Shown: positions 3,458 to 27,540 of the stretch, piece after piece
How the letters are laid out: every line of letters starts with the position of its first letter
Position numbering within the stretch: the stretch's first letter is position 1
Notes under the pieces: model-generated
Told to the model about the DNA's origin: nothing
What the model saw: the letters and a program-made list of their open reading frames with translations, nothing else
Database searches by the model: none
Position numbers and translations under genes: made by a program
Assembly (NCBI RefSeq): GCF_000025625.1
Contig: NC_013922.1
Coordinates: 3,658,001 to 3,722,000, forward strand
Direction: 5' to 3'
DNA length: 64,000 bases
Origin: Natrialba magadii ATCC 43099
GTDB lineage: Archaea; Halobacteriota; Halobacteria; Halobacteriales; Natrialbaceae

Positions 3458-3592
3458 ACGACTGGTTCGGCGGGCAGAGAGACAGGGTAATGCGAACTTA
3501 TTCGCGCGAATATGTTCGCCACACTCCCACCTGTTGGGAACAACTACCTGTTTTCAACTCCTGTAAGTGCCAAGCGAAGAGTGACGACAACG

Positions 3593-4078
3593 ATGACCGA
3601 CCGAACCCACACTCGACGAACCGTCCTGCAGGCCGCAGGCGCGACGTCCGTCGTCGCCCTCGCTGCCGGTTGTTTGAGCGACGATGAGGAGGAGAACGGT
3701 GGCGGAAACGGCGGCGGAAACGGTGGCGACGACGACATCGACCCATCGGAGTGGGAAGACGTCGATACGATCGAACTCGACGGCGTGACCGCCGGCTGGG
3801 AAGGCGTTGCTCCCGACATGATCGCAGGCGAGACGAACCCGACAATTGTCCTCTTCGAGGGCCAGGAATACGACTTTACCTGGTACAACGAAGACAGCGG
3901 GACCCACAACATCGAGATCTGGGACGAGGACGAAACGGTCGTCGAGGACTACCAGACCGACGAGGTCAACGATGACGAGCAGACGCTCTCCGGCGTTGTC
4001 GCTTCCGAGGAGATGGCCTACTACCGCTGTGCTCCACACAGCCAGATGCAGGCCCCAATTCAGGTCGAAAGCGAGTGA
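3593..4078 (+). CDS. halocyanin-like blue copper lipoprotein
   Basis: 161 residues. A twin-arginine signal (TRRTVLQAAG) runs into a lipobox ending at Cys27, followed by a Gly/Asn/Asp linker and a single cupredoxin domain. The type I copper ligands are visible: His105 in GTHNIEIW, then Cys146, His149 and Met152 in YYRCAPHSQMQ. Such proteins are membrane-anchored electron carriers on the outer face of the haloarchaeal membrane, serving terminal oxidases or other respiratory complexes. I chose the ATG at 3593 because it places the RR motif at the N-terminus; upstream in-frame codons would put about 27 residues before it. Confidence 0.85.
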   Translation: MTDRTHTRRTVLQAAGATSVVALAAGCLSDDEEENGGGNGGGNGGDDDIDPSEWEDVDTIELDGVTAGWEGVAPDMIAGETNPTIVLFEGQEYDFTWYNEDSGTHNIEIWDEDETVVEDYQTDEVNDDEQTLSGVVASEEMAYYRCAPHSQMQAPIQVESE

Positions 4079-23232: not shown

Positions 23233-23541
23233 TTACGGACCAGGTCCCGCGAATGGTTCCGGCAGGCCGCCGTAGAAGACGACGCCGATGATGATGGTCA
23301 GGATGAACATCCCGATCCACATCTGGGCCGTGATCCCGACGAGGTAGGAGACGCCGAGCAGGCCAGTTTTGGTATCGCGGGGTTGACCGATGAACCAGGC
23401 GGCGACCATCACGTAGACGGGGACGAGGATGACCCCGAAGATGAGGTAGGTCCCGATGTTCGGGAAGCCCGTCACACCCTCGGTCCCCTCGTAGCCGTGG
23501 TAGAGGATGAACGAGAGCGCAGTGGTGAGCGCTGGAATCAT
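23233..23541 (-). CDS. small membrane subunit of the Fe-S/NrfD complex, hypothetical
   Basis: 102 residues with three predicted transmembrane helices (ALTTALSFILYH; IGTYLIFGVILVPVYVMVAAWF; GITAQMWIGMFILTIIIGVVF). No known domain. It overlaps the NrfD-like gene by 4 bp (ATGA), so it is almost certainly the third subunit or an assembly factor of the same membrane complex. Confidence 0.75.
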   Translation of the reverse strand: MIPALTTALSFILYHGYEGTEGVTGFPNIGTYLIFGVILVPVYVMVAAWFIGQPRDTKTGLLGVSYLVGITAQMWIGMFILTIIIGVVFYGGLPEPFAGPGP

Positions 23542-24947
23542 GCTTCAACCTCCGGTTGCTCTGCACTTTCCTCTACCGGTTCGTGTTCGTGATCGTGACC
23601 GTGGTCCCCACGAAGGTGTTCGACCGCGTGGAGCTCGACCACGGGGACGACCTTCGACAGCACGAGGAAGAACAGCGTCACCATACCGATCGTTCCGGCG
23701 ATCGACAGCAGTTCGATCACGCTGGGGAAGTATTCTCCCGGTGAGCCGTCGTAGATGCTGAACGATGGGTACCAGAAGCCAGAGAGGACGAAGTACGTCT
23801 TCTCGACCAGCGTCGCGGTCAGCACGAGCAGGCCAGCGGCGATCGCGCGGCCCTTACTGAACAGCGCCGGGCGGATCGTCTGTGCGAAGATGTACACCAG
23901 CACGCCGAGCACCATCAGCATCGGGACGACGTACATCGGGTGCGAGAGCTTCGACGCAGTTGCGTCTGCGTGGTCCGTCGTCGGGTGGAAGCTGCCCGTG
24001 GCGAGCTGCTGGAGCTGCAGCCAGAGGAACAGCAGGCAGAAGAACCCGAGCCACAGGAGTAGCCCGCGGAAGATGTCGTCAGTGATGATGTGGTCCCAGT
24101 CGTACGCGCGACGGAAGGCGTAGGACAGCAGGATCACGCCACTGATAGCCGACGTGAGTGCGATCGTCAGGAACTGTGGTCCCTGAATGCCACCGAACCA
24201 GCTTGGGTAGTTCGGAAGGACGGCGAACAGCCACGGAATGACACCGCCGTGAAGCAGGAGCGGTGCCATGATGATGATCGCGAGTGCGACCCACCAGACC
24301 ATCCGGTCGATGACCTTGTCTTCGGCCTTGGTGTAGCCGAGGGTCAGCACGTTGTAGACTGGTGCGAGAAGGTCTGGAAGCTGTTTTCCGCCCACATTGG
24401 GCGCGAACGACGGCAGCTGATCACGCAGTCGCACGATGTCGTACCGGAGCGTGAGTCCGAGGTACGTCGCCGTCAGGACGAAGTAGGCCGTAATGACAGT
24501 CACGTCCCACACCAGTGGCGAGTTGTTGACCGTAATATGGTAGTGACCGATGACACTCGTGACCATGCGGTCCGGGCGGCCCATGTGCACTATAATGTAG
24601 AATCCTGCCGCAGAGAGGCCGGCGAGCGTCAGCATTTCTGCGAGGCGGGCAACCGGCATGTATCGATCCATGCCGAGCAGTCGGACCGCAGCGGAGAGGA
24701 TGATGCCGCCGTGTGCGATCCCGACCCACCAGATGAACGCGCCGATGTACAGTCCCCAGGTGACACCGCCGCCGGTCCCCCAGTCGGAGAGTCCGGTAAC
24801 GGCCATCCCCTGATCGAGCTGGTACAGCCACCCGACGAGGAACGCGCCGAGGGCCAGTGCCGAGATGACGAACAGGATCACGTACTTCTTCGTGAACGTG
24901 TGCATCGGCCGCAGGATGTCTTCCTCGGATGGCGTCTTGGTGCTCAT
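23538..24947 (-). CDS. nrfD: NrfD/PsrC-type membrane quinone oxidoreductase subunit
   Basis: 469 residues with about ten transmembrane helices. The start IHAGG-type region here reads VWGLYIGAFIWWVGIAHGG in sense (the exact text is TWGLYIGAFIWWVGIAHGGI), matching the PsrC/ActC fold that exchanges electrons between a membrane Fe-S subunit and (mena)quinone. The C-terminal tail is rich in His, Asp and Glu (DHGHDHEHEP). It overlaps the Fe-S gene upstream and the small membrane gene downstream by 4 bp each, so the three are translationally coupled. Larger and more tightly folded than simple NrfD, it resembles the alternative complex III/polysulfide reductase type. Confidence 0.88.
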   Translation of the reverse strand: MSTKTPSEEDILRPMHTFTKKYVILFVISALALGAFLVGWLYQLDQGMAVTGLSDWGTGGGVTWGLYIGAFIWWVGIAHGGIILSAAVRLLGMDRYMPVARLAEMLTLAGLSAAGFYIIVHMGRPDRMVTSVIGHYHITVNNSPLVWDVTVITAYFVLTATYLGLTLRYDIVRLRDQLPSFAPNVGGKQLPDLLAPVYNVLTLGYTKAEDKVIDRMVWWVALAIIIMAPLLLHGGVIPWLFAVLPNYPSWFGGIQGPQFLTIALTSAISGVILLSYAFRRAYDWDHIITDDIFRGLLLWLGFFCLLFLWLQLQQLATGSFHPTTDHADATASKLSHPMYVVPMLMVLGVLVYIFAQTIRPALFSKGRAIAAGLLVLTATLVEKTYFVLSGFWYPSFSIYDGSPGEYFPSVIELLSIAGTIGMVTLFFLVLSKVVPVVELHAVEHLRGDHGHDHEHEPVEESAEQPEVEA

Positions 24948-26602
24948 AGGGACACCCCAGCGTCACCGGCCGTCATCTCGTCGAGGACCTCCTTGCGGTT
25001 GTCAACGAGGCTGACTTCGGAGCCGTCTGCACGCTCGAAGTCGACATCCTCGTAGGCAACTGGTCCGTCGATCTGCTCTGCCTGCGGACCTGGCTCGTTG
25101 CCGAGGTAGATGATGTTCGGGTTAGTACCCATGTTCTCGAGCAGTTGGAAGTTCGAGTCCGGTTCTCCGGCATCGTTCACGAGGACGGTCTGTGCCGCGC
25201 TCTCGTCTGGACCGTCGAACTCCTCGTCCTCGTCCGGTTCGTCGGCGAGGTCGAGCCCAACGAGGACCTCCTCGCTGTCGAGGTCGAGGCCGTGTGCTTC
25301 GAGTGCATCGAAGGCTTCGACGATGTTCTGCTCGTATTCAGTGTGGCTGGCGTCGCCCTCACCGAAGTCGTCAGTGACGATTTCGATCGCCTTCATGATC
25401 TGGAGCGTCTCCTGATCGAGGTCTTCGGACGCTTCCAGAACGGACTCCAGGTCGTCGTCCGCACCGTCGAGGTCGTCCTCGAGTGCGGCCGGCGATGGAA
25501 CGCTCGTGTTGATGTCGGCAAGTGCGCGACCACGGGCCGGATTGTCGGCGTAGGCCTGTGGGTCGCTGCTATCGTCGAACATGTTTCCGAACTGAATCGC
25601 GTCCGGCGGACAGGATTCCTCGCAGGCGGTCGTCGCCACTCTGTCCTCGCCCATGGCACCGTCCTGGCGAGTCGGACACATCGTACACTTGCTCATGACG
25701 CCACGCGGTGCACGACTGTCGACCCAACGACCGCGCTGGTCGGTCATGTGGTCGTGTGGCATGTCGTCGTCGTGATCGTGGTCGCCCATCATTTCCTGGG
25801 CCTGTTCCTCGATGTCTTCCGTGGTGATGTCCGGTTCGTCCCACTGGAAGTAGTTGACACCGTACGGACAGGCAACCTGACAGTATCGGCAGCCGATACA
25901 GACGTCGTAGTCGGTCAGGACGAGGCCGTCGTTGTCACGGGTGTGACGCGCGGTCGTCGGACAGACCTTCTCACACGGTGCGTCGGTACAGTGTTGGCAC
26001 GGTCGAACGAGTCGGTTGCGACTCGTGTCGACGCCGTTGTCCTCGTAGTCGAGGACGTACATCCAGTTGACACCGCGGTCCAGGTTGTTTTCTTCTGCAC
26101 AGGCCTCGACACAGGAGAGACAGCCGTCACAGCGTTCGAGGTCGATCGCCATGCCCCACTGAACATCCTGCTCAGTGTTGTCGCCTTCCTGGGCGGCGGC
26201 AGCGACGTTCGGCTCGCTCTCGCTGCCACCTTCCGAGGCACCGAAGGCACCGAGACCGACGAAGGCGGCACCGGCACCCATCTTCTTCATCATGCCGCGG
26301 CGACTCTCTTCGCCGTCGCTGTCGACATTTTTCAGCATCTCGGCGAAGCCGCCAGCGTTCTTCTTGGCCTCTTCGTAGGCCTCCTCGGTTGGACGGTCGT
26401 CGACGCCGAACTCCTCCATCACGTCGTCGTGATACTTCTCGTGGAAGTCGGCTTCGGAGAGTTCGCCCTTCGTGACGCGCATGGCGTCTTCGGCCATCTG
26501 CATACCGAGGTCGCTGTCGTACTCGGTATCGTCGAGCATCGTCTCGAGTTCATTCTCCCACTCTTGACCGAGCGGATGGAACGATTCATCTTCCGTACTC
26601 AT
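24944..26602 (-). CDS. multi-cluster 4Fe-4S ferredoxin subunit with haloarchaeal N-terminal domain
   Basis: 552 residues. Residues 1-95 form a helical domain that haloarchaeal proteins of this kind carry; a Tat-like SRRGMMKKMG begins at about 100, unusually far in. Cluster-binding Cys groups follow: CDGCLSCVEAC, CQHCTDAPCEKVCP, CIGCRYCQVACP and CTMCPT with a later CEESCP, enough for four clusters as in DmsB/PsrB. A His/Asp insertion (DHDHDDDMPHDHM) lies between the third and fourth groups. The acidic C-terminal 200 residues have no recognised fold. It should pass electrons between the NrfD-like subunit and an unseen partner. No molybdopterin subunit is adjacent. Confidence 0.88.
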   Translation of the reverse strand: MSTEDESFHPLGQEWENELETMLDDTEYDSDLGMQMAEDAMRVTKGELSEADFHEKYHDDVMEEFGVDDRPTEEAYEEAKKNAGGFAEMLKNVDSDGEESRRGMMKKMGAGAAFVGLGAFGASEGGSESEPNVAAAAQEGDNTEQDVQWGMAIDLERCDGCLSCVEACAEENNLDRGVNWMYVLDYEDNGVDTSRNRLVRPCQHCTDAPCEKVCPTTARHTRDNDGLVLTDYDVCIGCRYCQVACPYGVNYFQWDEPDITTEDIEEQAQEMMGDHDHDDDMPHDHMTDQRGRWVDSRAPRGVMSKCTMCPTRQDGAMGEDRVATTACEESCPPDAIQFGNMFDDSSDPQAYADNPARGRALADINTSVPSPAALEDDLDGADDDLESVLEASEDLDQETLQIMKAIEIVTDDFGEGDASHTEYEQNIVEAFDALEAHGLDLDSEEVLVGLDLADEPDEDEEFDGPDESAAQTVLVNDAGEPDSNFQLLENMGTNPNIIYLGNEPGPQAEQIDGPVAYEDVDFERADGSEVSLVDNRKEVLDEMTAGDAGVSL

Positions 26603-26731
26603 CGAGTTAGAACACCTCTTGACATGCGGATCCAGTCACAACGTGAGTACGCAACGGCACCCACTTGAATACGTTCATTTGCGGTTCCTCTAGACCGCAC
26701 TCACAACTAGAGGTCGAAGAAAGACGCAGTC

Positions 26732-26752
26732 GATTTCCACACGGTGGGAATG
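26732..26752. promoter_or_regulatory. putative operator, 21-nt dyad, before the Fe-S/NrfD operon
   Basis: An imperfect dyad, TTTCC at the left and GGGAATG at the right with 21 nt overall, about 130 bp upstream of the Fe-S gene start. It shares the right arm GTGGGAATG and overall spacing with the dyad at 27520-27540 before the regulator gene. Confidence 0.5.
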
Positions 26753-26794
26753 GGTGCGAACAAGTTCGCCCCTATAACAGAGGGCGAGTAAACA

Positions 26795-27469
26795 TTAGCT
26801 ACGAGCGAGTTGCTCCTCGAGTGCTGTCTCGGAATCAGCATCGGGAACGCGGTCGACGAACCGCTTGATAATCGCTTCCTCAGCCCGGTGAAGCGTCTCG
26901 CTACACGTCGATTTGGCAATACCCAGATGCTCTGCGAGTTCGGTCAGAGAGCTTCGGCGCGGCGTATCGTAGTAGCCCTGTTCGACTGCAGCAACGAGGA
27001 CCTCGTACTGGCGATCCGAGAGCAGTTGGCTCTCGTGTAACTGTTCCGTGACGGTTTCGATGCGATACTGCAGCCCAAGCCGTTCGAACTGCGCTGCAAG
27101 TTCGCCCAGCCGCTCCCGCGAGCCGGTCACCTCGACCGTCGCGGTTCCGTCCTGGATCATGACCGGAAGCTCGATCGGCATGCCGGCGTCTCGCGAGGAG
27201 AACAACAGCAACGGCTTCGTCGTCTCGAAGTGCACCGTCGCCTCGCCGTCGGTTCGCTGTGTGAGGGTCACCTCCGTCAGCTGGGGATGGTCTTCCATCG
27301 TCTCGAGGACCTGCTCGACGTTCGACCCGGTGATCTGGACCAGCGCGAAGCCGGTGTCTGCACCGGGAACCGCAGCGAGCACCCGGAACGTTGCGTCCGG
27401 GTTCGACGTCGATACCTGTTGAATCCAGACGTGGTCGGGCAGCGTGATTGTGAGGGTCGCCTGCGCCAT
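26795..27469 (-). CDS. bacterio-opsin-activator type HTH regulator (HTH10 family)
   Basis: 224 residues. An N-terminal regulatory domain of about 155 residues is followed by the HTH10 domain: LSDRQYEVLVAAVEQGYYDT, then SLTELAEHLGIAKSTCSETL and an RAEEAIIKRF recognition end. This architecture is that of Bat/DmsR-type regulators which control haloarchaeal bacterio-opsin and DMSO reductase genes. It lies immediately upstream of, and in the same direction as, the Fe-S/NrfD operon (192 bp apart), and dyads of the same shape precede both, so it most likely controls that operon and itself. Confidence 0.87.
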   Translation of the reverse strand: MAQATLTITLPDHVWIQQVSTSNPDATFRVLAAVPGADTGFALVQITGSNVEQVLETMEDHPQLTEVTLTQRTDGEATVHFETTKPLLLFSSRDAGMPIELPVMIQDGTATVEVTGSRERLGELAAQFERLGLQYRIETVTEQLHESQLLSDRQYEVLVAAVEQGYYDTPRRSSLTELAEHLGIAKSTCSETLHRAEEAIIKRFVDRVPDADSETALEEQLARS

Positions 27470-27519
27470 GGCAATCGTTCACTCGACAGTTCGGACCGGA
27501 CACACAATAGACTCAATCC

Positions 27520-27540
27520 CATTCCTACCGCGTGGGAATG
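27520..27540. promoter_or_regulatory. putative operator, 21-nt dyad, before the HTH10 gene
   Basis: A perfect inverted repeat: CATTCC and GGAATG arms around a 9-nt centre. It ends 51 bp before the regulator start, in front of its gene, and resembles the dyad at 26732-26752. Confidence 0.5.

Follow-up and report, generated by a model that had tools for sequence, protein, structure and literature searches.

Regulator and Fe-S/NrfD operon of Natrialba magadii

The window analyzed here is a stretch of 64,000 nucleotides from the chromosome of Natrialba magadii ATCC 43099 (contig C1, positions 3,658,001-3,722,000). It contains a regulator gene followed by an operon for an Fe-S protein, an NrfD-family membrane subunit and a small protein, with the following features (positions of the window):

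23233..23541, minus strand: gene for a 102-aa protein, conserved at the operon end
23538..24947, minus strand: gene for an NrfD-family membrane subunit (PF03916; closest solved relatives are alternative-complex-III-type chains)
24944..26602, minus strand: gene for an Fe-S protein (Ferredoxin_N and 4Fe-4S domains; ActB/PsrB-type iron-sulfur part), ATG at 26602
26607..26678, minus strand: upstream ORF of 23 codons in the leader of the operon, ending 4 nt before the Fe-S ATG
26732-26752 (core 26734-26750): operon dyad GATTTCCACACGGTGGGAATG, 129 nt before the Fe-S ATG
26757-26768: CGAACAAGTTCG, partner element of the operon dyad, at a centre distance of 20.5 bp
26795..27469, minus strand: gene for an HTH_10/BAT-domain regulator, from profile matches and orthologues, ATG at 27469
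27520-27540 (core 27522-27538), read on the plus strand: perfect dyad CATTCCTACCGCGTGGGAATG, that is CATTCC-N9-GGAATG, 50 nt before the regulator ATG

The regulator scores 70.1 bits against PF04967 (HTH_10; cut-off 23.1), which places it in that group, and 27.2 bits against the BAT domain (cut-off 25.8). Both domains are shared with the Bat/DmsR/NarO group, from which the protein differs in that the domain search returned no PAS or GAF match and its sequence holds a single cysteine; NarO carries a cysteine motif. Ferredoxin_N and 4Fe-4S are the only domains of the Fe-S protein, and the 102-aa protein matched no family in the domain search. The order regulator, Fe-S protein, NrfD subunit, small protein, mrp is conserved across Natrialbaceae.

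A reading made from the sequence alone had reported a perfect dyad ahead of the regulator gene and a relative of it ahead of the operon. Both are confirmed at the positions listed above, and both start with CATTCCCAC on the coding strand. The genome search that this reading had proposed returned the exact CATTCC-N9-GGAATG pattern once in 4,443,643 bases, before the regulator gene. As to its worry that the dyad might occur at random frequency, the exact pattern is thus unique, but the loose pattern (at most 3 mismatches) stands at chance level within the window, with 15 matches found, 17.4 expected and no enrichment. We therefore rejected loose matches as stand-alone evidence. Single-sequence statistics give the operon dyad no support; as a putative operator, it is supported by its orthologues and not by the window.

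Conservation of the dyad

We defined the dyad core as TTYYCR-N5-YRRRAA and scored sites with at least 11 of 12 letters unless stated otherwise. Among the matches listed, 111 regulator orthologue loci were analyzed, 88 of them linked to the Fe-S gene and 23 unlinked; a truncated copy in genome G024 and a second copy in G085 were left out. The Fe-S start was unusable at three linked loci (two shortened stretches and one match starting at residue 4), leaving 85 Fe-S promoters.

The dyad precedes 77 of the 88 linked regulator genes and all 85 linked Fe-S genes, against Markov backgrounds of 0.015 and 0.024 per promoter, respectively, in counts taken over related genomes and uncorrected for kinship. 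Its position is near-constant in both sets, and the objection that it might be missing upstream of orthologous operons fails. The same dyad occurs in a recurrent third target, the quinol-type NO reductase qNOR (PF22085 and COX1; PDB 3ayf, E 3e-177), where 35 of 36 promoters carry it; this set excludes the distant loci L123, L127, L129, L131 and L134 and the other variants L133-L146.

Positions 6 and 12 of the dyad covary: 48 of 59 distinct sites are complementary against 36.3 expected, a value reached by 1 of 2000 permutations, as assessed in the regulator set, the Fe-S and qNOR sets being too invariant at these positions. Such covariation is as would be expected of a palindrome read by a dimer. 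These conserved sites give the regulator gene and the operon a common operator, and the two are very probably co-regulated.

A partner element at fixed spacing

Directly next to the operon dyad lies a second element, CGAAC-N2-GTTCG (in general form CGAA-N4-TTCG), which the earlier reading overlooked. It is exact in 66 of the 85 linked Fe-S promoters and matches at least 7 of 8 letters in 83 of them, as it does in 81 of the 88 linked regulator promoters and in all 36 qNOR promoters. Seven further qNOR genes, from genomes that lack the orthologue, were counted apart: the dyad occurs in 2/7 of their promoters and CGAA (at least 7/8) in 7/7. Wherever the CGAA copy is exact, its centre lies 20.5 bp from that of the dyad, in 66/66 Fe-S and 31/31 qNOR promoters. 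This spacing is close to two helical turns, so two dimers bound to the composite would lie on one face of the helix.

The order of the two elements is reversed in regulator promoters, with a centre distance of 18.5-20.5 bp, and extra CGAA copies lie mostly 21-27 bp to the other side of the dyad. In the N. magadii group, the regulator gene is preceded by the perfect dyad with no CGAA. HTH_10 regulator genes, including most unlinked ones, often have a CGAA-type element over their start codon (for example, at L010-L013). In most Fe-S promoters (for example, L024 and L034), CGAA follows a TATA-like box at 8-10 bp, so that CGAA and the dyad would coincide with the start site of the operon or follow it. 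In regulator promoters, by contrast, the TATA-like box comes after the dyad.

Most orthologous promoters have CGAACATATTCG-type elements, which fit a published motif, CGAAYATDKTYG; work on NarO by Hattori et al. in 2016 is said, in papers that cite it, to be linked to this motif. The operon copy in the window, CGAACAAGTTCG, retains CGAA-N4-TTCG and lacks the inner AT of CGAAYATDKTYG, while the copy before a cupredoxin-like gene described below, CGAATATGTTCG, is a full match. In the accessible text of Miralles-Robledillo et al. (2023, PMC10062603), CGAAYATDKTYG is the motif of haloarchaeal denitrification promoters, reported in 83 promoter regions of Haloferax mediterranei, and point mutations in it significantly lowered the activity of the nor and nos promoters; the binder is called unknown there and undisclosed in Miralles-Robledillo et al. 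(2024, PMC11218638). The locus can thus no longer be said to provide the first operator for this regulator group, as had been suggested, since the motif had already been published and mutagenized. The published system is the same as the CGAA half of the composite, with shared targets among nor, nos, nir, halocyanin and multicopper oxidase genes. However, it is presented as one semi-palindrome, and the accessible text of both papers makes no mention of a second dyad at fixed spacing. Neither did a search of the open-access literature, within its accessible text, return a description of the second dyad or of the Fe-S/NrfD complex in this role.

Genes downstream of the composite element

We detected the composite in 52 of the 125 family genomes and 90 of the 391 class genomes, with no occurrence of the reversed-pattern control in either search; outside the family, 22 of 290 genomes have it. 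Among 18 outside-family sites examined, 14 precede a multicopper oxidase (8), a qNOR (2), a NirK, an Fe-S/cupredoxin pair, a radical SAM gene or a halocyanin-like gene, and the remaining 4 have no assigned target. NosZ is a fourth target, in one family genome. While locus L241 has the composite before a real NirK, outside-family targets of the L236 type were considered as NirK and rejected: they are two-domain multicopper oxidases that score at most 78 bits against TIGR02376 (cut-off 296) and are distinct from the annotated NirK on the same plasmid. In genome G315, the composite lies between divergent Fe-S and cupredoxin genes, next to the regulator, and another composite precedes narG (NarG was identified by eye). 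An intergenic region between the halocyanin and qNOR genes of Halorussus halophilus (L284, 8949-9097) shows one CGAA with a dyad on either side.

In the window, a third site, with both halves of the composite and likewise overlooked by the earlier reading, lies far from the operon:

3493-3504: second CGAA copy CGAACTTATTCG, immediately ahead of the next element
3507..3518: CGAATATGTTCG, CGAA half of the third composite
3524..3540: CTCCCACCTGTTGGGAA, core of the dyad half of the third composite; the cupredoxin-like gene follows after 52 nt
3593..4078, plus strand: gene for a cupredoxin-like (halocyanin-like) lipoprotein, target of the third composite

The N. magadii cupredoxin-like protein has 45% identity over 95 aa to that of G315 and no Pfam match. 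An AlphaFold2 model of its fold, made with no alignment, was discarded at a mean pLDDT of 41. A search of the N. magadii genome returned no qNOR.

We suggest that the composite marks a regulon for nitrogen-oxide electron transfer in haloarchaea, which in N. magadii would comprise the Fe-S/NrfD operon, the cupredoxin-like gene and the regulator gene (through the dyad only); elsewhere it would include qNOR, NosZ, NirK, halocyanin and multicopper oxidase genes. This would provide specific, testable rules for the regulation of haloarchaeal denitrification, in which a known motif is paired with a second dyad two turns away.

Two candidate regulators for the two half-sites

The sequence-only reading had one Bat/DmsR-type protein act on both dyads. 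The shared, conserved operator and the co-regulation that it implied are borne out, but the dyad as that protein's own site is not. Promoters of the unlinked regulator orthologues have the dyad in only 3 of 23 cases and CGAA (at least 7/8) in 23 of 23. Those of homologues at 45% identity, several of which lie directly beside qNOR, have the dyad in 0 of 12 and CGAA in 12 of 12. Yet the recognition helix A-K-S-T-C-S-E-T-L-H-R-A-E is near-identical across these HTH_10 groups, with changes of L to I in one linked protein, A to I in one unlinked protein, C to A in four homologues and E to S in one homologue (the comparison used 86 linked and 25 unlinked sequences, two shortened stretches being later counted as linked). 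That the HTH_10 protein reads both dyads is doubtful on these sequence comparisons.

The dyad instead accompanies another type of regulator. In multicopper-oxidase promoters, of which 13 of 31 records were examined, the dyad (at least 10/12) occurs in 12/13 and an exact CGAA in 4/13. A winged-helix gene lies divergent from the multicopper oxidase, at less than 300 bp, in 14 of the 31 plasmid records, and its product matches HTH_20 above the cut-off, a domain shared with small HTH_20/ArsR-like haloarchaeal regulators. Halobaculum and some Halorussus have a dyad with no CGAA between the multicopper oxidase and the divergent winged-helix gene; Halomarina has one between nirK and halocyanin. HTH_10 and winged-helix genes are adjacent in Halomarina BND7, Halomarina PSR21, G002, G005 and Haloferax larsenii; the order in BND7 is nirK, DUF2249, HTH_10, winged helix, hypothetical, cbb3-type oxidase subunit I (taken as qNOR). 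In N. magadii, a winged-helix relative at 54% identity falls within one of the 13 dyad loci of the genome, which together represent 0.9% of its sequence. There (L065, G000:C1 ~1,687,000-1,688,200), the winged-helix gene and a multicopper-oxidase-like gene, truncated after ~151 codons, are convergent, and a dyad lies 45 bp upstream of the latter.

Starting from the two elements, their spacing and conservation, their target genes and the repeated linkage of two regulator genes, we consider it probable that the operator has two parts, with the HTH_10 protein on CGAA-N4-TTCG and a small HTH_20-type winged-helix regulator on the dyad. This division is likely because the dyad tracks the winged-helix gene and CGAA tracks the HTH_10 gene, CGAA being the element common to the HTH_10 genes' own promoters. 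CGAA would act in activation, judging from the published promoter mutants, and the signal sensed would be low oxygen and/or nitrogen oxides. Each half of the composite would thus have a named candidate, where published work, in its accessible text, calls the regulator unknown. For the winged-helix subfamily, a search of the accessible open-access literature returned no operator or function.

Other assignments should be weighed against this one. The HTH_10 regulator could still bind both dyads, combining autoregulation with control of the operon and leaving CGAA to a global oxygen regulator. Gene order, the dyad common to both promoters and the perfect dyad without CGAA before the N. magadii-group regulator speak for it. 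Indeed, the dyad-only promoter in N. magadii counts against the two-protein assignment, since direct autoregulation through the dyad would look alike. The dyad regulon also seems narrower than that of CGAA, with its 83 Hfx. mediterranei promoter regions (PMC10062603, accessible text). We nevertheless find this rather unlikely: regulators with nearly the same recognition helix have dyad-free promoters, and the dyad without CGAA adjoins a winged-helix gene rather than an HTH_10 gene. Moreover, the HTH_10 promoters of Haloferax larsenii, Halobellus, Halorussus halophilus and Halomarina contain CGAA, exactly or at 7/8, but lack a clear dyad, the only match in Haloferax being a loose one that overlaps CGAA. 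As the winged-helix family has paralogues, the dyad binder may also be another of its members, or some third regulator with no linkage to these loci. Several relatives exist, the best one in N. magadii lying ~2 Mb from the window, with no evident dyad in its own promoter, and a Natronococcus relative has neither an exact CGAA nor an exact dyad within 3.5 kb. An unlinked binder nevertheless appears improbable, given that one winged-helix subfamily is repeatedly linked to dyad-bearing promoters. A dyad TTTTCA-N5-TGAGAA was also seen in N. magadii ~140 bp upstream of a winged-helix paralogue at 34% identity (L057, G000:C1:719363).

That the dyad is a chance pattern, a piece of core promoter or an RNA hairpin of the operon leader is least plausible by far. 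Loose matches are unenriched within the window, and the TATA-like box upstream of CGAA in most operon loci could put the dyad close to the start site or within the leader. However, conservation already argues against chance, regulator promoters have the same dyad upstream of their TATA-like box, and the covariation of positions 6 and 12 (48/59 vs 36.3 expected) and the empty reversed-pattern control (0/391) point the same way. An Rfam search gave no match, and a known RNA element in the operon leader was rejected.

A candidate for the missing complex III

The accessible text of the N. magadii genome paper reports that bc1 genes are absent and that quinone-to-halocyanin electron transfer 'remains unresolved' (PMC3403918), and that of a 2021 review describes the same gap for about one-third of haloarchaea (PMC8305020). 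We found no petB (PF13631) in N. magadii, and petB is present in 24 of 125 family genomes. Among the matches listed, the linked operon occurs in 88 family genomes, of which one (G119) is petB-positive, while 23 of the other 37 are. In a class sample of 282 genomes, an Fe-S homologue (E<=1e-50) was found in 64/67 petB-negative vs 31/215 petB-positive genomes among the matches listed, and outside the family in 9/12 vs 22/198; these counts are inflated by common descent, and the search lumps paralogues. Three petB-negative genomes (G129, G195 and G286) have no Fe-S homologue among the matches listed. Three outside genera (g44, g63 and g68) repeat the anticorrelation.

At E<=0.001, the NrfD subunit has only four PDB sequence relatives, all of them chain C (6btm, 6f0k, 6lod and 8k9e); the matches of the Fe-S protein include chain B of these four entries. 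Entry 6btm is labeled alternative complex III, which we take the other three to be as well. With bacterial alternative complex III (ActABCDEF), the operon shares the NrfD-type ActC/ActF part through its PF03916 subunit. However, ActB combines molybdopterin-like and Fe-S domains, and the Fe-S protein of the operon matches PDB entries over the Fe-S part only. The bacterial complex has two NrfD subunits and the cytochrome c subunits ActA/ActE, whereas N. magadii has one NrfD, no cytochrome c subunit and the 102-aa protein instead, as judged on the conserved cluster (Fe-S, NrfD, small protein, mrp).

On these sequence relationships and the anticorrelation with petB, the Fe-S/NrfD cluster is a candidate for the menaquinol-to-halocyanin step and offers a concrete gene cluster for the stated open question. 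The complex would be a minimal alternative-complex-III-like menaquinol:halocyanin (cupredoxin) oxidoreductase of two to three subunits in bc1-less haloarchaea. Such a role would contradict the accessible text of PMC6176080, in which natronoarchaea are said to lack complex III and alternative homologues, and quinol oxidases are proposed instead; the latter are a fair alternative.

A second Fe-S paralogue of N. magadii (G000:C1:469506-470330, plus strand, 65%) lies outside the window, and most family genomes have two Fe-S matches among the matches listed. In its 300 upstream bases, neither operator element was found (best 6/8 for CGAA and 9/12 for the dyad). We tentatively combine these observations as follows, while holding the whole to be less secure than the two-part operator itself. 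The Fe-S/NrfD complex may be the missing complex III; the window copy would be under the control of the two-part nitrogen-oxide operator, and the paralogue at G000:C1:469506 would serve aerobic respiration. The HTH_10 and winged-helix proteins would then read the operator halves as an AND gate.

The leader of the operon

The short upstream ORF of N. magadii has counterparts in other leaders: 79 of the 85 contain an ORF of 20-30 codons whose stop codon lies a few bases at most from the Fe-S start and which overlaps a GGAGGTG-type ribosome site. We rejected it as a conserved peptide. Frame and C-terminus vary between lineages, so that conservation may be at the nucleotide level.
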